Notes under the pieces: generated by a model
What the model saw: only the letters and a program-made list of their open reading frames with translations
The model's database searches: none
What the model was told of the DNA's origin: nothing
Position numbers and translations under genes: made by a program
IMG/VR virus record: IMGVR_UViG_3300003322_000724
Coordinates: 1-39,708 of that record
Direction: 5' to 3' (one strand)
DNA from: a virus
Length of the DNA: 39,708 nucleotides
Part shown: piece by piece, positions 6,464 through 27,187 of the stretch
Numbering within the stretch: position 1 is the first letter of the stretch
Layout: the number at the start of each line of letters is the position of its first letter

Positions 6464-8047
6464 TTACGCCTGTGGCGGCATCATCATAAACTGCTGTTTC
6501 GGTTCTACCTGCGTGCATACGCCGCCGTTGTAGATGCTGAACATGAGTTCTACCGTACCGACTGCTGCACGTACCGAATTTTTGCATACGATAGCTGAGT
6601 CTATAATGCCAGCATCGAACATGTCTACAATAGCTCCTTTCTTTGCATCAAATCCATGATTGTTCTTAAAGTCTTCTCCCTCTATAAAAATAGTTTTGCC
6701 CTCATTCGGAATTTTATCTGCGATTTCATATCCACCATTGCGAATAATATTCTTGACTGGAGCTTTTAGAGCGATTTTAAGTATGTTCCCTCCTAACGTA
6801 TCAGGCATTTCACGTGAAACATTAAGTAAACATACACCTCCTCCTGCTACATATCCTCCCTGCATAGCCAATTTGGTAGAATTTACGCAGTCCTCGGCTT
6901 TATCACGGAGATACGATAGTTCCGACTCAGATTTTGCTCCGATTTTGAGCTTTGCTGCTTTTGCCGACAATGCGCCAAGCCGTTCCTTGAGAAGTGGTGT
7001 GTCTTCATCGAGCGTGGTTTTCAAGTGTTCAATATAATCAGTAAGGTCTTTACCGCCAAGTACAGTAGTCGTATGCTCGGTAATGGTTATTTTTTCACAT
7101 GTTCCAGCATTATCAAGACGTGCGCGATCGAGCGTTACGCCAGTTTTAGCCGAAAGGAGCGTTGCGCCTGTGAGTTCTACAATATCCTCAAAAAATGCAT
7201 CTTTGCCGATTGTAGGGGATTTGACGACGATCATTCGCGCACCGACTGCACGATTAGTTCCTGCTATGTCTTTAAGTGCTCGATCGTCTACTTCATCTGC
7301 GATGAGCACCATATCCTGTCTTCCTGCCTTTCCAACTATACCGAGGATGTTTTTGAGTGCGACAGAATCCCTAATTGGCTGGGTAGTTACGAAGATAATA
7401 GGGTTTTCCTGTTCGTATTCACCTTTATTATCCAAAAATGCGCGGCTATATGACTTTGCACCAAGGAAACGAACACCTTTGATTTCTTCCCAAGAAGTAT
7501 CAGCATTTCCAGAGTTTTCAATTTCAACGAATCCTTCTTTGCCGATTTTATGATAAATATCTGCTACAACTGTACCGAGTTCTTCAGATTCTGCGGAAGT
7601 AATAGCTATGTTGCGGATTTCCTCGTAGGTAATGCATGGGCGAGCTTGTGCATCGATCGCTTTCTCTACCTCTGGTAGAATAGCGTCAAGTTCGCGCTTG
7701 ATTGCGATGCCGCTCTTGTCTTTCAATAGTTTCATTCCCTCATCAATGATAACTGGTGCGATTGTAAGCGCAGTTGTAGTACCGTCGCCAGACCTGTCAT
7801 TGGCTCTTTTTGAGACTTCACGAGCGATGTTTGCGCCTATTTCAAGCGCATTGTCTTTGAAATGGATAGAGTGGGCAATAGTGATGCCGTCATTGGTGAA
7901 ACGATGAAAAGGTCGCAGCTTTTCTTCTATGAGGAAATTATTGCCTGATGCGCCGAGCGTTCGGGATACAGCTTTACATACTGTCGTAAAACCTGCTTTT
8001 ACTTTATCAAATCCCTCTGCTCCTTCGTAATAGTTTGATTCGTACAT
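6464..8047 (-). CDS. groEL: Phage-encoded chaperonin GroEL, 527 aa
   Basis: A full-length 60-kDa chaperonin subunit. The ATP-site motifs are present and collinear with bacterial GroEL: TLGASG (30-35, in place of TLGPKG), NDG (52-54), GDGTTT (87-92), and GGYVAGGG near residue 400 following the conserved acidic RDKAEDC segment that carries the catalytic Asp. The length is slightly below the usual ~545 residues. The C-terminus is MMMPPQA, not the GGM repeat of host GroEL. It would form the double-ring cage with the GroES-like protein encoded two genes upstream. The start overlaps the preceding stop as TAATG. It sits just upstream of terminase, portal and capsid genes, suggesting virion proteins as clients. 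Confidence 0.95.
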   Translation of the reverse strand: MYESNYYEGAEGFDKVKAGFTTVCKAVSRTLGASGNNFLIEEKLRPFHRFTNDGITIAHSIHFKDNALEIGANIAREVSKRANDRSGDGTTTALTIAPVIIDEGMKLLKDKSGIAIKRELDAILPEVEKAIDAQARPCITYEEIRNIAITSAESEELGTVVADIYHKIGKEGFVEIENSGNADTSWEEIKGVRFLGAKSYSRAFLDNKGEYEQENPIIFVTTQPIRDSVALKNILGIVGKAGRQDMVLIADEVDDRALKDIAGTNRAVGARMIVVKSPTIGKDAFFEDIVELTGATLLSAKTGVTLDRARLDNAGTCEKITITEHTTTVLGGKDLTDYIEHLKTTLDEDTPLLKERLGALSAKAAKLKIGAKSESELSYLRDKAEDCVNSTKLAMQGGYVAGGGVCLLNVSREMPDTLGGNILKIALKAPVKNIIRNGGYEIADKIPNEGKTIFIEGEDFKNNHGFDAKKGAIVDMFDAGIIDSAIVCKNSVRAAVGTVELMFSIYNGGVCTQVEPKQQFMMMPPQA

Positions 8048-11794: not shown

Positions 11795-11795
11795 G

Positions 11796-12065
11796 TTATT
11801 CTATAAATAATTCATTATAAATCTCATCCATCGTATCTTCTGCTATCTTCTTTGATTCAAGATGTGTGATTCCGAATCCTCCTTTGAGCAGTCTAGCGGT
11901 TATATTTGGTACATACGGGTCATCATATTCAATGGCTTCTATACATAGTTCTCTTGCTTTCTTTCGTGCTCCTTTGAAGTCTTTCTTTTTACCGATATAT
12001 CCTACATTTTGTGGGCCATTTCCGTGTTTAGTTGCCCAATATATTTTAGACAATCTTTTCTTCAC
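11796..12065 (-). CDS. Hypothetical basic protein, 89 aa
   Basis: A GTG start at 12065 overlapping the preceding stop (GTGA) gives an 89-residue protein starting KKRLSKIYWATKHGNG after the initiator. The longer ATG start at 12104 overlaps the 43-aa gene in another frame and is less likely. The N-terminal half is basic, the C-terminal half acidic and helical. Function unknown. Confidence 0.55.
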   Translation of the reverse strand: MKKRLSKIYWATKHGNGPQNVGYIGKKKDFKGARKKARELCIEAIEYDDPYVPNITARLLKGGFGITHLESKKIAEDTMDEIYNELFIE

Positions 12066-12193
12066 TGTATTGCTTGCTTTAGTTCTTCTGCAAACTTGTC
12101 GCAATAATCTCCGTCATTTCCTCCCCACAACAGTGTATCATATCCACATTTAGAACATTCACTACCCGTAAAAAAGAATATGCCTGCGTTCAT
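12062..12193 (-). CDS. Hypothetical protein, 43 aa
   Basis: A 43-residue ORF starting MNAGIFFFTGSECSKCGYDT, with C-x2-C and a third Cys near residue 31 that could bind zinc. It overlaps the next gene as GTGA. No family recognised. Confidence 0.5.
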   Translation of the reverse strand: MNAGIFFFTGSECSKCGYDTLLWGGNDGDYCDKFAEELKQAIQ

Positions 12194-12209
12194 GACTAGT
12201 AACTATATT

Positions 12210-12386
12210 TTATTCAAAGCTGAGTTTAGTAATCAAGTCTTCGATTTGATTCTGACGTGAAGTCTCTCCTAGTCCACTATTCCGGCATTCGACCAATTCA
12301 TTATTGAGTATTTCTCGTGCAATAAGTAGTTCTTTTCTTGAAAGTGTCATTACTCTTTCGCCGTCAGTTATTTTAAAGGTATTCAT
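12210..12386 (-). CDS. Hypothetical protein, 58 aa
   Basis: It starts MNTFKITDGERVMTLSRKEL and is followed by helical segments ending in LITKLSFE. The layout resembles short phage proteins with a beta start and helical hairpin. Function unknown. Its upstream neighbour ends 1 nt before its start. Confidence 0.55.
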   Translation of the reverse strand: MNTFKITDGERVMTLSRKELLIAREILNNELVECRNSGLGETSRQNQIEDLITKLSFE

Positions 12387-12387
12387 A

Positions 12388-12510
12388 TCAAAATCTTTTT
12401 TCTTTTAAATCTTCAATGAGCAATTCTACTGTTGGTATGAAGCCTTCTTTCTTTTTTTCCTTGTTGTAATTTTCAAGAAACACTATAAGTAAATCATTAA
12501 AAGTCTCCAT
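12388..12510 (-). CDS. Hypothetical protein, 40 aa
   Basis: A 40-residue ORF starting METFNDLLIVFLENYNKEKK, amphipathic and charged. It ends immediately before the 58-aa gene and begins 1 nt after the membrane peptide gene. No family recognised. Confidence 0.5.
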   Translation of the reverse strand: METFNDLLIVFLENYNKEKKKEGFIPTVELLIEDLKEKRF

Positions 12511-12511
12511 A

Positions 12512-12601
12512 TTATTTAAGCATATTTATTGCTGATAGGACTGCTAGCAAGATTATCAAAACAATACATACCCACGCGACTGATTGTACTGGATTTTTCA
12601 T
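12512..12601 (-). CDS. Single-pass membrane micro-protein, 29 aa
   Basis: A 29-residue ORF with a continuous hydrophobic segment (about residues 7-26, SVAWVCIVLIILLAVLSAI) flanked by Lys at both ends. It is too short for a family call; membrane insertion is the only clear property. Confidence 0.5.
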   Translation of the reverse strand: MKNPVQSVAWVCIVLIILLAVLSAINMLK

Positions 12602-12602
12602 A

Positions 12603-12788
12603 TTATTTGTTCAAATGATTAAAGAGCACTATTTCAGCTTCTTCCTCCCCTGCATCAATTCCGAGATCAGTAAACTTATTCTCTAGCCATGATTCATATA
12701 CATTCTCAAAATTGTCTTTAATAACCATTGGATTTTCTTTCATAAAGAGTGCATGACAGAAATCTTGAGCATTTAGTACTTTTTCCAT
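12603..12788 (-). CDS. Hypothetical acidic protein, 61 aa
   Basis: It starts MEKVLNAQDFCHALFMKENP; the second half is strongly acidic (AGEEEAEIVLF). Its stop abuts the membrane micro-protein start. No family recognised. Confidence 0.55.
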   Translation of the reverse strand: MEKVLNAQDFCHALFMKENPMVIKDNFENVYESWLENKFTDLGIDAGEEEAEIVLFNHLNK

Positions 12789-12821
12789 AAGATGTTTGTA
12801 ATAGTGTCTTAGGTGTTTCTA

Positions 12822-13046
12822 TTACTTCTTAAGTATACTCTTTTTGTCCTTAATGTCCATACTCATATGTGGATAAGTTGCCCATAGGTGAGCCTGACTA
12901 GAAGTTACATTCCTATTGAGTTTTTTACCCATAATTTCAGCTATTTTACGGTAGGAATAGCCTTTTTCACGTAGTTTATAGGCAATAGAACGTTCTTTTT
13001 TGAACTTCTTTACCCAGATATATTTTCTTTTGTCGTCTTTTTTCAT
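12822..13046 (-). CDS. Helix-turn-helix protein, 74 aa
   Basis: A very basic protein with a probable helix-turn-helix at residues 20-50 (SIAYKLREKGYSYRKIAEIM, then turn and SSQAHLWA). The pattern 'REKGYSYRKIAEIMG' is typical of resolvase/transposase-type HTHs. It may be a regulator. Its gene overlaps the NinG-like gene by 4 nt. Confidence 0.6.
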   Translation of the reverse strand: MKKDDKRKYIWVKKFKKERSIAYKLREKGYSYRKIAEIMGKKLNRNVTSSQAHLWATYPHMSMDIKDKKSILKK

Positions 13047-17718: not shown

Positions 17719-17719
17719 T

Positions 17720-17941
17720 TTAATTATTCATACACATTAAATTACCTAGACAAATTGGTCCTTTACCAGGAACTTCTTCTGTTTCTTCTTTAATCATTTC
17801 CCATCCTGATTTTAGTAAATTCATTTGGCTTTTTAGTAAAAAAACTCTAGTTTCGCCAATAGAATGATCCACTGTTCCGACTGATGTGATTATTTTACCT
17901 GTTTTTATATGTTTCCATGTTTGTATTATTTTTTGAGCCAT
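17720..17941 (-). CDS. Hypothetical protein, 73 aa
   Basis: Starts MAQKIIQTWKHIKTGKIITS with beta-rich segments and an MKTxW-like core; ends with PICLGNLMCMNN. No family recognised. It is the first gene of the leftward block after the RNA-rich zone. Confidence 0.55.
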   Translation of the reverse strand: MAQKIIQTWKHIKTGKIITSVGTVDHSIGETRVFLLKSQMNLLKSGWEMIKEETEEVPGKGPICLGNLMCMNN

Positions 17942-17957
17942 ATATTAAATTTATTTC

Positions 17958-18018
17958 TTAGAAAAAGGAAAGAGGAAAACCAACGCATTGAAGTTTAAAG
18001 AGAAAGAAAAAGAAGTCC
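17958..18018 (+). other. Polypurine tract at the start of the gene-free zone
   Basis: About 60 bp consisting almost entirely of A and G on the plus strand with only a short interruption, lying just upstream of the 73-aa gene. It could be structural (triplex or bent DNA) or simply the leader of a leftward transcript (pyrimidine-rich on the minus strand). No gene seen here. Confidence 0.35.
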
Positions 18019-18033
18019 CTAGAAGTAAACTTA

Positions 18034-18063
18034 AATGGTATCGGTTATCCGACCATTCTTTTT
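18034..18063 (+). terminator. Hairpin with U-tract (plus strand)
   Basis: AATGGT and ACCATT arms with an inner CGG/CCG step enclose a short loop at 18034-18057, followed by CTTTTT. This is terminator-like for a plus-strand transcript; no plus-strand gene is visible upstream, so its use is unclear. Confidence 0.4.
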
Positions 18064-18099
18064 AAGACAAACATTATTAAATTAGTTCCATAAACACCA

Positions 18100-18337
18100 A
18101 GTAGAGACGGCAAGGATTTGACGAGATGCGGTTCGTCCACAGCGTTTCCACTTGACGATGCCGCAGCAATAACGCTTATACTCGTAATAGTCACCTTGCA
18201 TATTCCCGCATCACTTCGGCTTTGATTGCGTACAGGTCACAGGTTTCCCTCGCTGGATAACCGCTTTCTCTACCACACCATACTGACGGGAACTAACCCA
18301 CCTCTTTAGCGTCTACCTATTCCGCCACGTCTCTACT
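18100..18337 (-). ncRNA. tRNA-Leu-like RNA with large insertions (RNA A)
   Basis: On the minus strand a 10-bp closing helix AGTAGAGACG/CGTCTCTACT is followed by TGGCGGAATAGGTAGACGC, which is a normal tRNA-Leu D-arm. At the 3' end GCAAGGT and TCAAATCCTTGC form a canonical T-arm, but about 70 nt separate the halves, and an oversized domain replaces the anticodon and variable arms. The T-loop insert has nested stems ACGAG/CTCGT, TGCGG/CCGCA and a possible pseudoknot GCGTT/AACGC. No anticodon arm could be assigned with confidence. It could be an interrupted tRNA, an intron-bearing tRNA or a different structured RNA. Confidence 0.45.
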
Positions 18338-18355
18338 CGATGTTCATAGAACTTA

Positions 18356-18439
18356 AACAAAAAGCGCTTGCCTGGTTAGGACAAGCAAGCGTTCTCTGCT
18401 CACAACCTTCCTAACAGGTTATGCAATCTATTTGTTTAT
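18356..18439 (-). ncRNA. Candidate small RNA with promoter and terminator
   Basis: The predicted start near 18439 lies 7 nt after a consensus promoter. The RNA contains CCTGTTAGG, then a hairpin ACGCTTGC/GCAAGCGC (18365-18391) whose loop contains CCTAACCAGG, complementary to the earlier segment, and ends with a U-tract (18363-18356). It is about 80 nt long. Either a discrete small RNA or an attenuator ahead of RNA A. Confidence 0.55.
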
Positions 18440-18445
18440 ACCTAA

Positions 18446-18474
18446 ATTATAAAAAACTATATCAAAAATTGCAA
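18446..18474 (-). promoter_or_regulatory. Promoter of the 80-nt RNA
   Basis: On the minus strand TTGCAA (18474-18469), a 17-bp spacer and TATAAT (18451-18446), a near-perfect sigma70-type promoter with no protein gene behind it. Confidence 0.65.
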
Positions 18475-18537
18475 GTGTGGAAAACTAAAATCAATCAATT
18501 CTTTACATAACAAAATGAATTATTAACTCCGTAAATA

Positions 18538-18566
18538 TTTACATATAAACCATAATATGTTATTAT
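18538..18566 (+). promoter_or_regulatory. Promoter of a plus-strand small RNA
   Basis: TTTACA (18538-18543), 17-bp spacer, TATTAT (18561-18566). No ORF follows before the hairpin at 18648, so it likely drives a non-coding RNA. Confidence 0.55.
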
Positions 18567-18572
18567 ATAGAT

Positions 18573-18685
18573 AATCCTGAAAAGGAGATCGTTGCTTGAG
18601 GCAACTACACCCTGGCGAGGGAAAATACGCGCTATATAGTCTAAAACGAGCAAGTTCTCATTAATGGGGGCTTGCTCTTGTTATA
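18573..18685 (+). ncRNA. Candidate plus-strand small RNA, ~110 nt
   Basis: Begins about 7 nt after the promoter above. Contains a GTTGC/GCAAC hairpin, a purine-rich CCTGGCGAGGG segment, and a final hairpin GAGCAAG/CTTGCTC (18648-18677) followed by a weak U-rich run. No ORF of useful length. The class is not recognised. Confidence 0.45.
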
Positions 18686-18723
18686 GGTCAATTTTGAGCG
18701 TTATAGAACGTTTTAAAGACATA

Positions 18724-18939
18724 CAAAAAAGCCCCAAGAATATCAAAACTTGGAGCTAATCTGTATATATCCCAGAATATAGGTTCTTAAGCTATATTTT
18801 TGCGCCGTTACTCGGTTATTACTTAACCTGCTCTGAGCGAGGTTTTGCTGATACCTTTCTCGAACGCCCGCGATTTATTTTTGACTCTAAGAGAATGTAA
18901 TAGATTATCAAATTTGTTTGAACATCTCTAGTAAGAGTC
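18724..18939 (-). ncRNA. Candidate small RNA, ~215 nt, with terminator
   Basis: Behind TATAAT at 18951-18946 (with -35-like TGTACA 17 bp upstream) lies a gene-free transcript. TTTGACTCT near the 5' end can pair with AGAGTCAAA about 50 nt later. The 3' end is a clear intrinsic terminator: AGCTCCAAG/CTTGGGGC (18756-18731) followed by six U residues (18730-18725). The length is in the range of regulatory RNAs, but no known family was recognised. Confidence 0.55.
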
Positions 18940-18984
18940 AAACATATTATACCTATTACAAACTCCAATGTACACTGTGGAAAA

Positions 18985-19419: not shown

Positions 19420-19535
19420 AAATTAGATAATTAAATACTAATCCTGTCCATAACAGGGTTCTTTAGCCCGTAGCTATCTTTATTATACTATATGTGCCAA
19501 ACTTAAGACAGTATTTATTACCTAATTCAAACTAT

Positions 19536-19712
19536 ATGGAAAAACTATTGAAAGGCCTGTCAAAATGCTGTCCTCTGTGCAAAAAGATACTTTTTAGATA
19601 TATGAAATTGAAAGGGGAGGGTTCGTTCGAAGTTAAGTGTAGCCACTGCCAGGAAATAATACTTGTTTTAGTAGGAACAGATACGACAATAGAAACTCAT
19701 AAATGTAAATAG
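19536..19712 (+). CDS. Com-like zinc-finger protein, 58 aa
   Basis: Starts MEKLLKGLSKCCPLCKKILF; C12-x2-C15 and C35-x2-C38 frame an LF...G.FEVKC core that matches the layout of the phage Mu Com protein, an RNA-binding translational activator. An in-frame GTG at 19494 is a weaker start. One of few plus-strand genes; it ends right before the minus-strand tRNA-Ile. In Mu, Com activates translation of the DNA-modification gene mom; no mom is visible here, so its target is unknown. Confidence 0.65.
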   Translation: MEKLLKGLSKCCPLCKKILFRYMKLKGEGSFEVKCSHCQEIILVLVGTDTTIETHKCK

Positions 19713-19784
19713 TACGACTTGAGGGAATCGAACCCCCGACAACGACTGTATAAGAATCGCGTTCTGCCACTGAACTAAAGTCGT
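19713..19784 (-). tRNA. tRNA-Ile, anticodon UAU
   Basis: A complete 72-nt cloverleaf on the minus strand: acceptor ACGACTT/AAGTCGT, D-arm GTTC...GAAC type, anticodon arm CGATT-CTTATAC-AGTCG with U33 and anticodon UAU, T-arm with GTTCGATTC. A is the discriminator; CCA is not encoded. The UAU anticodon reads AUA; many bacteria instead use a lysidine-modified CAU tRNA for this codon. Confidence 0.85.
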
Positions 19785-19791
19785 AATGGTG

Positions 19792-19840
19792 CGCGGGTTT
19801 TTTAATGACCCGCGACTTGGGAACCAGACAACGTGTCTGG
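19792..19840 (-). other. Two hairpins between the structured RNA and tRNA-Ile
   Basis: CGCGGGT/ACCCGCG (19792-19814) and CCAGACA/TGTCTGG (19824-19840). Neither has a U-tract on the minus strand, so they may be processing or spacer hairpins in a transcript that carries RNA B and the tRNA. Confidence 0.4.
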
Positions 19841-19855
19841 GTATATATGGAATTG

Positions 19856-20345
19856 TTTGCCGAAAGAAAGAACTGATCTGCTCAAACCCCCGTCTAAGGC
19901 ATCGTGATATTTCTTACCCCTGACAACAAATCACTTTAGTCGCCAGGACCTTAAACTGACAGGGATTTGAACAGACCAGATTGTGAGAAGTGCTTAGAGC
20001 AAGTGGCAAGGATTCCCGTAGCCACCTTGCATGGATTTTTCTATTTTCTCGCTGATTCCTCCTTAGACCCGAGAAACCTCCATCGAGGTAAGTAAATCTT
20101 AGCGTCTACTACTTGAATGCCCCTTTATGAGAGTGGCACTCCACGTCTATTCCGCCACACTTGCTTTAAACAATCCTCGTTCCTATACAAAGCCCTCCAT
20201 CGGATTAAGGGAGTTATCCATCTTGATTCCTGAAAAAGAAATCATGGCGCAAATACCTTCCGATATTCTCCCTCCTTCAATCACGATGCAGAGCAAAGTT
20301 TGGATCCCCTGCCTTTACGACAGAGGGCTTCATATAGGAACTGGG
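19856..20345 (-). other. Gene-free, structure-rich region around RNA B
   Basis: No coding frame with plausible features. It holds the RNA B core, an additional 6-bp hairpin CCTCTG/CAGGGG near 20310-20330, and further stems on the minus strand. Its length (about 490 nt, with a tRNA following) recalls large ornate phage RNAs such as ROOL or GOLLD, but no similarity could be tested. Confidence 0.4.
19998..20165 (-). ncRNA. tRNA-Leu-like RNA with insertions (RNA B core)
   Basis: Minus strand: closing helix AGCAAGTG/CACTTGCT, then TGGCGGAATAG...GTAGACGC, a tRNA-Leu D-arm split by about 35 nt, a stem GATTT/AAATC enclosing two hairpins (ACCTC/GAGGT and TTTCTCG/CGAGAAA), and a T-arm-like GCAAG/CTTGC with an enlarged loop. 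The D-loop insert itself contains a hairpin with loop CTCATAA, like a CAU anticodon loop. It shares TGGCGGAATAG, GTAGACGCTAA, ATGCAAGGTG and AATCCTTGCC with RNA A in the same order, so the two are related. Confidence 0.45.
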
Positions 20346-20356
20346 TACAGTGTACC
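20344..20356. promoter_or_regulatory. 13-bp palindrome (possible operator)
   Basis: GGTACAGTGTACC is a perfect palindrome around a central base, between the terminator of the holin gene and the structured RNA region. It fits a dimeric repressor site. Confidence 0.35.
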
Positions 20357-20365
20357 ATAAACACA

Positions 20366-20385
20366 AAATCCCCAAAAGGGGATTT
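20366..20385. terminator. Terminator after the lysis genes
   Basis: AAATCCCC-TTTT-GGGGATTT hairpin on the minus strand followed by TTTTGTGTTT. It lies 45 nt after the stop of the holin candidate and should end the lysis transcript; the symmetric A/T arms make it usable in both directions. Confidence 0.75.
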
Positions 20386-20430
20386 CATGCAAGTAAGTCT
20401 TCCAACGAAAGAAGACATATTTAGTATATA

Positions 20431-20655
20431 CTATTCTTTCCAGGATGCCCACTTGTGACCGGCCATGACTACACCTGTAAGAAATCCGTTTACGAAAGCG
20501 ACACAAAGTGCAGTGACGAATGTACGTGTTTCAGCAAGTGTAGCGATTTGTCCTTCTTTTGTATATGAAGCTACGATAAGCATCATTGTAGTAAAAGCTG
20601 ATGCGAGACCTGCTTTGAGAAAACGTTTAAGAATTGATTTTGTTTTTATTGACAT
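20431..20655 (-). CDS. Putative holin, 74 aa
   Basis: Two hydrophobic segments (about residues 14-31, LASAFTTMMLIVASY, and 46-66, VTALCVAFVNGFLTGVVMAG) separated by a short polar loop, with a basic N-terminus and a short charged C-terminus. The size and topology match class II holins, and it lies in the same unit as the amidase. It would open the membrane to release or activate the endolysin. No sequence family recognised. Confidence 0.6.
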   Translation of the reverse strand: MSIKTKSILKRFLKAGLASAFTTMMLIVASYTKEGQIATLAETRTFVTALCVAFVNGFLTGVVMAGHKWASWKE

Positions 20656-20659
20656 AATT

Positions 20660-20827
20660 TTATATTAATGATGAATATATGGAGTGAGTATGTTTCACTT
20701 CCGAATGACAATTTTTCCGCTCACATTTCCAACCCTTAGGCGTTGGTACTTCTACAATAAAAGTTCCGTCGTCTACCATCGTAGATAAAACTTTAAATTC
20801 TGTATTACTAAATACTGGTTTTCCCAT
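20660..20827 (-). CDS. Hypothetical protein, 55 aa (leaderless)
   Basis: Starts MGKPVFSNTEFKVLSTMVDD; beta-rich, with a C-x5-C and His-rich end (CERKNCHSEVKHTH) that could bind a metal. The longer reading from 20914 overlaps the 44-aa gene. A -10 box TATAAT with extended TGG lies 6 nt before the ATG. Function unknown; lysis accessory from context. Confidence 0.6.
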   Translation of the reverse strand: MGKPVFSNTEFKVLSTMVDDGTFIVEVPTPKGWKCERKNCHSEVKHTHSIYSSLI

Positions 20828-20833
20828 AAGATT

Positions 20834-20839
20834 ATTATA
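20834..20839 (-). promoter_or_regulatory. Extended -10 promoter for the 55-aa gene
   Basis: Minus strand TGGTATAAT, with the hexamer 6 nt upstream of the ATG at 20827. The -35 is poor, but the TGn extension can compensate. Confidence 0.55.
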
Positions 20840-20969
20840 CCACGATAATAAACATTGTTGGATAGATTCCAATCTCTGAATAAATTCCTGTACCAGTAGA
20901 CATACAATCACCAACGTATTTTATATTTCCGAAGTTATTTTCATAGTCACTTCTATAGTTATATTCCAT
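20835..20969 (-). CDS. Hypothetical protein, 44 aa (leaderless)
   Basis: A 44-residue ORF starting MEYNYRSDYENNFGNIKYVG with a hydrophobic end. Its ATG lies 6 nt after TATAAT (20981-20976, with TGT extension). Its stop overlaps the next promoter. No family recognised. Confidence 0.5.
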   Translation of the reverse strand: MEYNYRSDYENNFGNIKYVGDCMSTGTGIYSEIGIYPTMFIIVV

Positions 20970-20975
20970 GATGTT

Positions 20976-20981
20976 ATTATA
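20976..20981 (-). promoter_or_regulatory. Extended -10 promoter for the 44-aa gene
   Basis: TGTTATAAT on the minus strand; hexamer 6 nt before the ATG at 20969; overlaps the amidase stop region. Confidence 0.5.
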
Positions 20982-22110: not shown

Positions 22111-22254
22111 ATGGCAAAAAACGAACGAACCTCGAAGAGTGTTGGGACACTTGCTTCACGAGTACTCAGTGGCGAAAGGAAAGCTACACAAAGTGACGCT
22201 CGTCGTCTTGCAGCAAGCGTTCTTACCCAAAGACCAGACAGAAAAAGGCGTTAG
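22111..22254 (+). CDS. Small basic protein, 47 aa
   Basis: Starts MAKNERTSKSVGTLASRVLS and ends TQRPDRKRR; Ser/Ala/Lys/Arg-rich. The pattern MAKN.RTSK.VA..AS..L with a final 'S.L.QRPD' occurs in small plasmid/phage proteins of unknown function as I recall them. Its codon usage (CGT, ACC, CTT) and SD-like leader differ from neighbours, hinting at recent acquisition. It is read opposite to almost all neighbours. Confidence 0.6.
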   Translation: MAKNERTSKSVGTLASRVLSGERKATQSDARRLAASVLTQRPDRKRR

Positions 22255-22594: not shown

Positions 22595-23263
22595 TTAAAG
22601 TTTAAGCCAAAGGTTAGTAAACAAACTTTGACAATATATATTTCCGACATCATCTATATGAGATGAGTTACAGACTTCTTCTTTGAGAGAAGCTCTAAGT
22701 TGGTTTTCTCTAAACTTTAATTCCTTTTGTTTCAGAACGATTTTTGATGATATTGAACTTATTTCTTTTTCTTTCTCATAACAATTCTTTTCTTCTTCTG
22801 ATAAAGATCTTACATCTTCATAAGGAGAGTTTAGTTTTTCTTTAGGAACTTTTGCCCATATGCTACAACTTGGAATTACATTTTTGTTGAGCTTAATTGC
22901 AAGGTCTTCTTTCATACTTTTAAGTTCATTTTGTAGATCAATTTTCTGATTATTGAGATCGAAAAGTTCTGAATTTAATGGATCAGAAGCAATGATTTCA
23001 GAATTTCTTTGAAAACCTGCTTTAACAGAGGCAAGAATCTGTGCTTCTGACCATATACCTGAATTAACAGAAATTACAGGTTTAGGAACAGTAATAGAGT
23101 TTGGTATTGGTGTCGGAGGCAATAAAGGTACCTCTGGAGACGTTATAGGGATCATAGAAGGGGATACAAGAGCCAATTGACGGTTTCTTGCCTGAGATAC
23201 AGATATACCTGTACCTATGAGCAAAATGAGGGCAATAAAGCCCATAAATATGTATTTTTTCAT
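22595..23263 (-). CDS. Secreted or membrane-anchored coiled-coil protein, 222 aa
   Basis: A basic start and hydrophobic segment (about residues 4-22, MGFIALILLIGTGISV) form a signal peptide or anchor; a Pro-rich linker (residues 35-60) follows; then a long Glu/Lys helix (residues 95-200) with cysteines at roughly 132, 163, 202 and 213 that could form disulfides. Its single anchor and periplasm-facing coiled coil recall spanin-like or surface-exclusion proteins; neither is proven. It has a switch-like leader at 23263-23358. Confidence 0.6.
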   Translation of the reverse strand: MKKYIFMGFIALILLIGTGISVSQARNRQLALVSPSMIPITSPEVPLLPPTPIPNSITVPKPVISVNSGIWSEAQILASVKAGFQRNSEIIASDPLNSELFDLNNQKIDLQNELKSMKEDLAIKLNKNVIPSCSIWAKVPKEKLNSPYEDVRSLSEEEKNCYEKEKEISSISSKIVLKQKELKFRENQLRASLKEEVCNSSHIDDVGNIYCQSLFTNLWLKL

Positions 23264-23358
23264 TGCAAGTCTTAATTATTTTAAAAGCAAAACACCGCCT
23301 TTGAGAGGGTAGACTTGCAAGAGAACCCACCCCAAGGCGGAGCTTTATTTGCAAGTCT
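23263..23358 (-). promoter_or_regulatory. Switch-like RNA leader of the 222-aa gene
   Basis: On the minus strand, AGACTTGCAA (23358-23349), then a hairpin CCGCCTT/AAGGCGG (arms 23340-23334 and 23301-23295) with inner GGGT/ACCC, whose loop displays TTGCAAGTCT (23320-23311), then AGACTTGCAA again (23272-23263), whose last A is the first base of the start codon. The loop can pair with either copy but not both, so translation start could be exposed or masked. Confidence 0.55.
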
Positions 23359-23404
23359 GGTATTTTGTTTTTATATTTATATAATACTTTCGTATTTATG
23401 TCAA

Positions 23405-23551
23405 TCAATCTTCAAGGGACTCAATAATGGGATAAAATGATCTTTCTATGTCTATAAGCAGTTTTACTTTTGTATGACCTTCGCTATCTATGAAGAGAAG
23501 AAAACCGCTTCCATCTTCGTTAGGGAGCCACCTGACATTTGATATGGACAT
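23405..23551 (-). CDS. Small hypothetical protein, 48 aa (leaderless)
   Basis: Starts MSISNVRWLPNEDGSGFLLF, beta-rich, then VKLLIDIERSFYPIIESLED. Divergent from the 52-aa plus-strand gene at 23619. Promoter TAGACA (23585-23580), 16-bp spacer, TATACT (23563-23558), 6 nt to ATG. No family recognised. Confidence 0.55.
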   Translation of the reverse strand: MSISNVRWLPNEDGSGFLLFIDSEGHTKVKLLIDIERSFYPIIESLED

Positions 23552-23618: not shown

Positions 23619-23777
23619 ATGAAAAAAGACGAAAAGAAAGATATCGACGAAGCGTTCAGAAAAATTGTCTTTATTTGTTATCCAATGATCGAAGAAGGGA
23701 AGAAGATTACTGTAGAAAAAATCAAGAAAATCCATACGATCGCCAAGGAACAACTGAGAAAAATAAGGGGAAAATAA
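23619..23777 (+). CDS. Small Lys-rich protein, 52 aa
   Basis: Starts MKKDEKKDIDEAFRKIVFIC, very charged and helical, ends QLRKIRGK. Its ATG is 6 nt after an extended -10 box. Divergent to the 48-aa gene. Possibly nucleic-acid-binding from its charge; no family recognised. Confidence 0.55.
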   Translation: MKKDEKKDIDEAFRKIVFICYPMIEEGKKITVEKIKKIHTIAKEQLRKIRGK

Positions 23778-23784
23778 TATTCTA

Positions 23785-23981
23785 AAAATCCGTTTTGATG
23801 CTATTATCTATTCGCAGTTCCTTGAGTAAGAACTGCGTGAGATTCTTGATATTGAGAAATCCTATATATGGAAATCTTAAAACTCGTTCTCGTCCTTTTG
23901 ATATTGCGAGAATTAAATAAACGATAATATCGACAGATAATCGTCATAGCCCGGCGATTTTTCTGTATCAAAACGGATTTT
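23785..23981. repeat. 197-bp element with 15-bp terminal inverted repeats
   Basis: AAAATCCGTTTTGAT (23785-23799) and its exact reverse complement (23967-23981) bracket the element. Inside are a GCAGTTC/GAACTGC hairpin and a 19-codon hydrophobic ORF. The arms could close a large cruciform/stem in RNA or be ends of a small mobile element. No target-site duplication was seen. Confidence 0.55.
23868..23927 (+). CDS. Possible hydrophobic micro-peptide, 19 aa
   Basis: ATG-initiated ORF encoding MEILKLVLVLLILRELNKR: a hydrophobic core and a charged tail, as in type I toxin peptides. It lies inside the inverted-repeat element. There is no promoter or SD of note, so this is weak; it could be chance. 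Confidence 0.25.
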   Translation: MEILKLVLVLLILRELNKR

Positions 23982-24007
23982 CAAAATACTACTTGACAAG
24001 TTATATT

Positions 24008-24152: not shown

Positions 24153-24242
24153 ATGATTTATATAATCATTTCAATTCTATTATTTGCTCTTGCAGAAATG
24201 CTAGTCGGAAATCAAGATTCTACTTTTCTTGGTCTATGGTAG
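24153..24242 (+). CDS. Hydrophobic micro-protein, 29 aa (leaderless)
   Basis: Starts MIYIIISILLFALAEMLVGN: one membrane helix of about 18 residues and a polar tail. It ends convergently overlapping the stop of the 563-aa gene. A matched promoter with the same 6-nt spacing as other genes argues it is real. Toxin-like or membrane-effector role possible. Confidence 0.5.
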   Translation: MIYIIISILLFALAEMLVGNQDSTFLGLW

Positions 24243-25925
24243 GATACCTGCTCCTTTGAGCAATTCTCCTCCTGCCAGTGTTCCAATTCCCTTTTTTGCT
24301 ATGCCAGAAATTATAGGATTTCTAGCACTAAAACGTTGAAGTGCATTTGTACCGACTTCTGATTGCGCATTAGCGCTCATTCTATCTATTGCTTCGTATA
24401 AGTCTGCTTGTTTAGCTAGACTTTCCTTAAATTTATTCCCTTCTGGCAAACTCTCTCCTATAAAATCGTTCATTTCTCTTCGAATATCTCTTATTGCACT
24501 CTTCATTGGTGTCAATTTATCGCTTGAATATAGATTAGGGAATTGTCTTTCAACAAAAGCATCAAATTTCTTTCGTGCTTCTAGTAATCCACTAATAGTA
24601 CCTCCTTCTTTTTTTGCAATATCTACAGCAGCTTTCCTTACGGTATCATATGCTTTGTTTAGGGTATTATCTGAACTTATGAGAACAGGTTTCTCAATTT
24701 TATTTATTCTAGATTGAAGTTTTTTGAATGTATACGGGTGATTTTGAATCGCTACATCATTCTTCAATGTTTCTGCCTCTGATGTGAGAGCCCGTTTCAC
24801 AAGACCTACATTTTCAGTGATTGTCTTGCTTGGATCAACCATTCCAGATATAGCTTTTCCTATGCGAATATCTTTTTTATTAGGTTTAATAGATATTTTA
24901 CCCAAAATACCAGTCTTTTCTGCTCTTCCTTCCCCAACCGCTTTAGACACAGCTTTAGCAGACATTTTAGGCATTACCATTTGAACTTCAGGTGCAATCT
25001 TTTCAGCGGTTTTAATGCCAACTGTTTTGAGACCTTTCTCGATCGCTCCCTTTGCTATATTCTTTTCCAAATTAAATGTCTCTCCCAGTGCGGTTGTAAC
25101 AGGAATAAGAGATGCGATATTTCCTACAGCAGATAAATTAGCAGCAGCTTCTGGGTGCTTTTGGGAAAATTCTTGATATTTTTCTACTCCTTTTTTAACC
25201 AAAGGCATCTTAGTTATTTGTTCGGTAGCACCTTTGAGTGCCCCGGCTATTGGTCTTTCAATAAAGTTAGGAGTTATAGCGGAAAGCGCACGAGTTGCTA
25301 ATGATCCAGCTTCCCCTGCTATCTCCCCTCCTTGCTGAAGTAAACTACTTCCAAGACCTATTAAGCCCTGTTTTCTTTGTTTTTTTATATTCTCAATTTC
25401 CTGTTTTCTTCTCTTTATCTCATCGATAATACCTTCATCTGAAGAAAAGCTAGGTGTATTCTCTTTTTGAGAAGATGATGGAGCTTGTGTTACAGTAGAT
25501 TGATTATACTGATCATAATATTTAGCTACATTATTTACATAAGAAGGAACATCATAATTCACTCCTTGCTCTGCATTATAGCCAGAATGACCTTCTTTGT
25601 ACGCATTAGGATTACCACTATTCCATTTAGAAGCAATTTGTGCTGGATTTAGTCCTTGTTTACCCCAACTTTCAACAGTTTTGTACGCTACTCTGTCTTG
25701 ATTTGTAGGGGAAAAATCGTCGGGATTTTCCCCTACTGATTGGGCAAAAGACCTAAAATTTGCTGGTATTTCTCCATCTCTTAATGGAGCAGGATTATTC
25801 CACTGATATGCACCTTTAGAGTGTCCGTTATCTCCTATTTTATTGTAATCCCCGCCTGATTCTTGCTTACCAATAGCTTTGGTCAGAGCAATAACCGATG
25901 GGTCTAATTGTTCTTGTGGATTCAT
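24234..25925 (-). CDS. Virion-associated transglycosylase / ejection protein, 563 aa
   Basis: N-terminal 120 residues form a lysozyme-like domain: ALTKAIGKQESGGDYNKIG with a catalytic Glu (E22), GAYQWN, then NPAQIASKWNSG and YVNNVAKYYDQ. The remaining ~440 residues are Ala/Lys-rich and helical, with hydrophobic stretches (LIGLGSSLLQQGGEIAG, LSAVGNIASLIPVTTAL) that could enter the membrane. In podoviruses such proteins are packed in the head and form the ejection conduit. It closes the virion operon that begins at the other end. Confidence 0.75.
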   Translation of the reverse strand: MNPQEQLDPSVIALTKAIGKQESGGDYNKIGDNGHSKGAYQWNNPAPLRDGEIPANFRSFAQSVGENPDDFSPTNQDRVAYKTVESWGKQGLNPAQIASKWNSGNPNAYKEGHSGYNAEQGVNYDVPSYVNNVAKYYDQYNQSTVTQAPSSSQKENTPSFSSDEGIIDEIKRRKQEIENIKKQRKQGLIGLGSSLLQQGGEIAGEAGSLATRALSAITPNFIERPIAGALKGATEQITKMPLVKKGVEKYQEFSQKHPEAAANLSAVGNIASLIPVTTALGETFNLEKNIAKGAIEKGLKTVGIKTAEKIAPEVQMVMPKMSAKAVSKAVGEGRAEKTGILGKISIKPNKKDIRIGKAISGMVDPSKTITENVGLVKRALTSEAETLKNDVAIQNHPYTFKKLQSRINKIEKPVLISSDNTLNKAYDTVRKAAVDIAKKEGGTISGLLEARKKFDAFVERQFPNLYSSDKLTPMKSAIRDIRREMNDFIGESLPEGNKFKESLAKQADLYEAIDRMSANAQSEVGTNALQRFSARNPIISGIAKKGIGTLAGGELLKGAGILP

Positions 25926-27151: not shown

Positions 27152-27187
27152 AGTTTATATAATTATACCATTTTTAATGATGAAGGA

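Follow-up and report, generated by a model that had tools for sequence, protein, structure and literature searches.

Terminator and antiterminator folds alternate in attenuators, and the lambda cIII mRNA exists in two interconverting structures. Bacteriophage leaders of several kinds are described as governing the translation of the gene that follows them: binding of RNase III is reported to relieve the inhibitory structure of the cIII mRNA (PMC2777011), and the leaders of the T4 genes e (lysozyme), soc, 49 and I-TevI are presented as sequestering their starts (PMC3014915). For the timP mRNA of a type I toxin-antitoxin system, mutually exclusive conformations have been proposed, the active one being described with a pseudoknot (PMC11228461). 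Here we compare with these systems the region 23263-23373 (minus strand) of an uncultured phage, which may, with somewhat less than an even chance in our judgement of the fold models, form a bistable 5' leader, or an attenuator between cistrons, in the mRNA of the ORF P0001, with two mutually exclusive folds.

The window, that is, the whole 39,708-base stretch analysed (a 39.7-kb contig, virus record IMGVR_UViG_3300003322_000724), belongs to a bacterial virus in which family matches identified genes for a P22-like portal, a GpA-type terminase, a chaperonin and an amidase. The large ORFs regarded as genes are all encoded by the minus strand. The chaperonin gene (6464-8047, minus strand) is of the Cpn60 family (E 1.9e-33), and small ORFs that by eye resemble co-chaperonins are found in the related loci L011, L049 and L059. 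A gene for tRNA-Ile with anticodon TAT (19712-19784, minus strand) is located in a long ORF-poor stretch. According to the ORF list used, long ORF-free stretches cover 11795-13042, 17719-18984 and 19420-20976; 11.1 kb of the 39.7 kb fall outside the list, which is much for a phage, and small genes may be missed.

P0001 (22595-23263, minus strand) encodes a 222-amino acid protein from an ATG. Its predicted architecture comprises an N-terminal hydrophobic signal or anchor, a proline-rich linker and long helices at residues 95-127 and 156-198. Searches against Pfam, PHROGs and NCBIfam assigned it to no family, and its sole match among PDB sequences was a GCN4-fused chain (E 0.21). Structure prediction without an alignment gave a mean pLDDT of 59.9, a model too poor for a fold search. 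Downstream of P0001 lies an endolysin-type amidase (PHROG endolysin, E 7e-38). A spanin-like role was considered for P0001, given its N-terminal anchor and coiled coil near an endolysin, as an unproven analogy. A hairpin followed by a T-run, resembling an intrinsic terminator, is located 3' of P0001 (22431-22455, minus strand), and a 47-amino acid ORF between P0001 and the amidase (22111-22254, plus strand) matches phrog_5079, a family of unknown function (E 3.4e-5).

Directly upstream of the leader and promoter region, a 48-amino acid ORF (23405-23551, minus strand), for which searches found no relatives, is possibly the first gene of the unit; since it ends at 23405, transcription reading through from upstream is also possible. 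A candidate sigma70-type promoter, TTGACA-17-TATAAA, matches the consensus at 23376-23404 (minus strand) and is predicted to begin an RNA at about 23369. Its spacer contains AATACGAAAGTATT (23383-23396, minus strand), a perfect 5-bp inverted repeat around GAAA and a candidate operator or small RNA hairpin. A Bacteroidota-type promoter was considered but dropped, the minus strand showing no excess of TANNTTTG. The motif TGNTATAAT occurs six times on the minus strand of the window, five of them outside the listed ORFs, and not at all on the plus strand. Its minus-strand sites are found, for example, at 27170, 24068, 20842, 6461 and 3506; at 27170 an ATG follows after about a dozen bases, suggesting a nearly leaderless mRNA. 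No Shine-Dalgarno sequence is evident by eye at the P0001 start or at most of the 41 listed starts, so that control would act at the start codon region itself. A literature search on Shine-Dalgarno or leaderless starts in Patescibacteria returned nothing. Further upstream, a 28-nt inverted repeat (23772-23799 and 23967-23994, 86% complementary, 167 nt apart) sits right after a 52-amino acid plus-strand ORF (23619-23777) and may represent a small element, either mobile or structured.

Examination of the leader confirmed the presence of the three exact 10-nt copies, the third at the start codon, which had been noted in the preliminary description; that description left the strand unnamed, and everything applies to the minus strand. 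Copy 1 (AGACTTGCAA, 23349-23358) and copy 3 (AGACTTGCAA, 23263-23272) flank copy 2 (TTGCAAGTCT, 23311-23320), which is the exact complement of AGACTTGCAA, and the last A of copy 3 is the A of the P0001 ATG. The view that chance is an unlikely source was borne out as well: a 10-mer, its complement and the 10-mer again within at most 120 nt occur together once in the window and in none of 300 dinucleotide shuffles, and the same design with 9-mers in 1% of the shuffles. Among 1300 ATG starts (ORFs of at least 100 amino acids on both strands of the window and the related phage loci, a set that includes chance ORFs and some overlapping loci), three, P0001 among them, have an exact complement of at least 10 nt upstream; two are A/T low-complexity cases and P0001 is the only one that contains G or C. 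The core TTGCAA is itself palindromic and any copy can pair with any other over 6 bp, so the copies hold less independent information than three 10-mers. In the literature, either 10-mer appears in 79 papers, of which the 10 listed concern, by title, unrelated subjects.

The copies may instead act at the DNA level, as binding sites for a phage or host protein that is a repressor or activator of the P0001 promoter or is part of an origin or recombination site, RNA pairing being a by-product. We consider this rather unlikely. It agrees with the perfect palindrome TTGCAA and with the position of the copies just 3' of a promoter-like sequence whose spacer holds an inverted repeat, and outside the window five of 94 related loci (1.13 Mb) likewise have clusters of 10-mers in both orientations. 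Of the four clusters viewed, the ones in L011, L049 and L059 look like iteron arrays and the one in L068 lies inside an ORF; L062 has a motif in common with L059. The leader, however, has just three copies, whose starts are unevenly spaced (48 and 38 nt), and further exact copies or clustered near-copies of the 10-mer are found nowhere else in the window; neither the regular spacing nor the wider set of sites of an iteron or operator array was thus found. A protein-binding role would also leave unexplained the 58-nt quasi-palindrome around copy 2 and the two arm positions at which a mismatch becomes a G-U pair in the sense RNA alone. The case against chance is stronger than that against DNA binding. 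As to the arrays themselves, they consist of TGACAACTT and ATCTGGCAGA in both orientations (L011 868-1029, L049 6761-7075, L059 7958-8276); they are situated upstream of the terminase region and are probably replication origins.

Copy 2 had been placed in a hairpin loop. It is not a plain loop: its TTGCAA sits exactly in the middle of a 58-nt quasi-palindrome without gaps (23289-23346, minus strand; 21 of 29 pairs), the best one in the window, in which the copy is partly paired. Maxima over 100 shuffles of the whole window ranged from 17 to 20 pairs. As minus-strand RNA the hairpin, which we call fold H, has a predicted energy of -27.1 kcal/mol over a 67-nt stretch (z -4.6), compared with -19.6 kcal/mol for the plus-strand RNA. 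At arm positions 14 and 26, where the plus strand has A/C mismatches, the minus strand has G-U pairs, an asymmetry that mildly favours a role as sense RNA. The U-rich tail UGUUUUGCUUUU follows 3' of the hairpin in a terminator-like arrangement; a terminator scan for perfect stems with loops of at most 8 nt listed only shorter hairpins inside the 58-nt one. At the gathering score, the tRNA was the only Rfam match in the window and the leader matched no known family, and at E<=5 one sub-threshold match overlapped the leader (20.5 bits against 99).

The hairpin alone may be what matters, either as a simple terminator after the 48-amino acid ORF or by protecting the 5' end of the mRNA, the copies having no role in switching; we hold this to be unlikely. 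The folding energy, its z-score, the U-rich tail and the ORF end at 23405 just upstream all agree with it, but it accounts neither for copy 1 nor for copy 3, the exact 10-nt repeat that reaches into the start codon. Moreover, a plain terminator right before P0001 would stop its own transcript if the promoter at 23404 were used.

The bistable reading concerns the folding of the complete leader. In fold A (23282-23373, minus strand) the 10-bp helix between copies 1 and 2 lies inside an outer helix in which 23359-23373 pairs with 23282-23296, so that the A-rich 5' end takes up the U-rich tail; by prediction, this excludes fold H. For the 141-nt leader, fold A has an energy of -34.2 kcal/mol, and the best fold with no pair in common with it reaches -31.4 kcal/mol, a value that constrained folding assigned to the hairpin fold. 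Across 1000 shuffles of the whole leader the energy of the second fold averaged -20.0 kcal/mol (sd 2.5) and none reached -31.4 kcal/mol. When shuffling was confined to the flanks of the hairpin, none of 1000 sequences reached -34.2 kcal/mol; with both the hairpin and the three copies kept, 45 of 1000 reached the energy of fold A, whose strength thus comes mostly from the repeats themselves. The pair of folds is non-random in silico, and the earlier claim that the two pairings exclude each other is supported in silico as well. Like an alternative-fold leader, the region has two exclusive folds of comparable energy, both better than chance, a result softened by the comparison with 1079 distinct real start regions, in which the second-fold energy ranked 92 raw and 5 after linear GC adjustment: real gene starts weaken what the shuffles suggest. 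Bistability of the kind modelled here is unusual, yet not unique, among real sequences.

Relatives of P0001 were found neither in the viral_contigs, genome_contigs, phages and plasmids collections nor in the related phage records (none in 11, then none in 47). The contig scans require an exact 8-residue peptide and the two record searches ran without a positive control, so that remote homologues could be missed. Terminase searches yielded 179 relatives, from which 80 loci were retained. The record L007 is 99.93% identical to the window, covering only 7342-3078; its only three differences (L007 2805-2843) are clustered in a 39-nt segment of the terminase gene, where two turn Trp codons into stop codons. 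The neighbour gene at 24234-25925, lytic-transglycosylase-like by eye and without a Pfam family, was found in two of the 11 and 10 of the 47 related records. Its downstream side was read in eight of these 12 records (L015 and L101-L107; the L016 record breaks off within the gene), and all eight carry other genes there, none of them like P0001. Together with its leader, P0001 looks like an accessory, phage-specific cassette. Tandem short-repeat ORFs occur in two of the related phages (L107 4364-4972 and L015 11-346, of the STG...STG and CPVLLCPVF types). The three-copy pattern followed by an ATG had no match in viral_contigs; the two-copy inverted repeat had four, none with a nearby third copy or a common context, and these are chance or unrelated hairpins. 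A genome scan with the terminase alignment found no relative, and no host was thus identified.

The repeats may be a functionless mutational leftover, a short segment copied by replication slippage or template switching at the quasi-palindrome, as the duplication-like similarity of copies 1 and 3 over 15 nt (87%) and the phage-specific occurrence, with no conserved relative found in searches, would suggest; we regard this as unlikely, since the copies are exact although non-coding DNA drifts freely and since the two folds are nearly equal in energy.

Predicted pairing at different transcript ends bears on the bistable leader itself. According to the preliminary description, the leader could mask or free the start, masking being due to pairing of copies 2 and 3. 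The second half of this was not supported by prediction: among the 5' ends tried, the probability of the 10-bp pairing of copies 2 and 3 stayed at 0.00-0.11 except with 23343, which lies beyond copy 1 and gave 0.57-0.92. In long transcripts this helix had a predicted probability of 0.00, unlike a masked start of the T4 gene e type. The start does fall outside the helices in the fold formed by copies 1 and 2, and pairing of copies 2 and 3 is predicted to be minor unless copy 1 is missing. By fold prediction, the real competitor of the pairing of copies 1 and 2 is the 58-nt hairpin, and masking in fold H is predicted to come from copies 1 and 3, which pair through the 6-bp core TTGCAA over the start.

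The predicted balance between the folds shifts with the 5' end. With the 5' end placed between 24060 and 23420, copies 1 and 2 paired with a probability of 0.83-0.99; this was 0.44-0.94 at 23376 and 0.06-0.52 at 23369, where the hairpin reached 0.47-0.90; at 23358 the hairpin reached 0.69-0.98. The states differ by 1-3 kcal/mol, which is within model error, and the effect varies with the chosen 3' limit; a dependence of the fold balance on the 5' end is put forward as a hypothesis suggested by these models, not as a result. AUG accessibility is predicted to be only moderate in both states. Even where fold A prevails in long transcripts, the bases of the AUG are only partly unpaired (0.04-0.72), and a free start is thus a weak prediction. 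For the 23369 start, lower temperature favoured the hairpin and decreased AUG accessibility, which is true of any helix. When prefixes of growing length were folded, the helix of copies 1 and 2 appeared at about nt 70-78, ahead of the 3' arm of the hairpin, and persisted to full length.

These models suggest how the leader may work. In fold A, the pairing of copies 1 and 2 together with that between the A-rich 5' end and the U-rich tail would block the hairpin; the start codon would lie outside the helices, translation being on and any termination off. Since copies 1 and 2 are transcribed earlier than the hairpin's 3' arm, fold A should form first. Formation of fold H, with the 58-nt hairpin and its U-rich tail, would set copy 1 free to pair with copy 3 by TTGCAA, the start would be partly covered, translation would decrease and early termination would be possible. 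Transcripts coming from upstream would remain in fold A and those starting at or inside the leader would favour fold H, so that the state could be flipped most simply by promoter choice or 5' processing. That both folds exist in vivo, that transcription starts from this promoter, that the leader controls translation or termination and that such a cause flips the state is inferred.

A further reading, in our view improbable, is a switch among three self-complementary copies, open when copies 1 and 2 pair, masked when the hairpin forms and copies 1 and 3 pair, and closed when copies 2 and 3 pair in the absence of copy 1, the state being tied to transcript start or trimming. Pairing among all copies in three states would be allowed by the palindromic core TTGCAA that each carries. 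If true, it would link start-codon access and possibly termination to the 5' end of the transcript or its trimming.

Among the known systems, the bistable P0001 leader comes near T4 gene e as that leader is presented in PMC3014915: a phage leader helix over the start region of a lysis gene, with masking set by transcript start. Gene e has a single helix, its start being masked in long early transcripts and free in short late ones, whereas the P0001 leader is predicted to have two competing folds and a 5'-end dependence opposite to that of T4, long transcripts taking fold A and short ones fold H. With lambda cIII, as portrayed in PMC2777011, it would have in common that translation of a phage mRNA is decided by leader conformation; it would differ by having a terminator-like hairpin as one state, and no sequence relationship is known. 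The timP mRNA is enterobacterial and comes with an antitoxin RNA, whereas no antisense RNA is known for the P0001 leader. The order of elements, copy 1, arm, copy 2 and arm with U-rich tail, with the pairing of copies 1 and 2 predicted to block a terminator-like hairpin, is that of an attenuator; in contrast to attenuators, the P0001 leader has no known ligand, protein or leader peptide, and in contrast to an intrinsic attenuator hairpin, fold H is interrupted by internal loops and followed by a U-tract that is imperfect, so that termination is a prediction. If it works at all, the P0001 leader resembles those of T4 gene e, lambda cIII or timP, membership in any of these groups being an analogy. 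A working switch, compact and simple in sequence, would join the few known phage leaders that restrain a gene of the lysis region, and its masking would act on the start codon itself in an uncultured phage without evident Shine-Dalgarno use.
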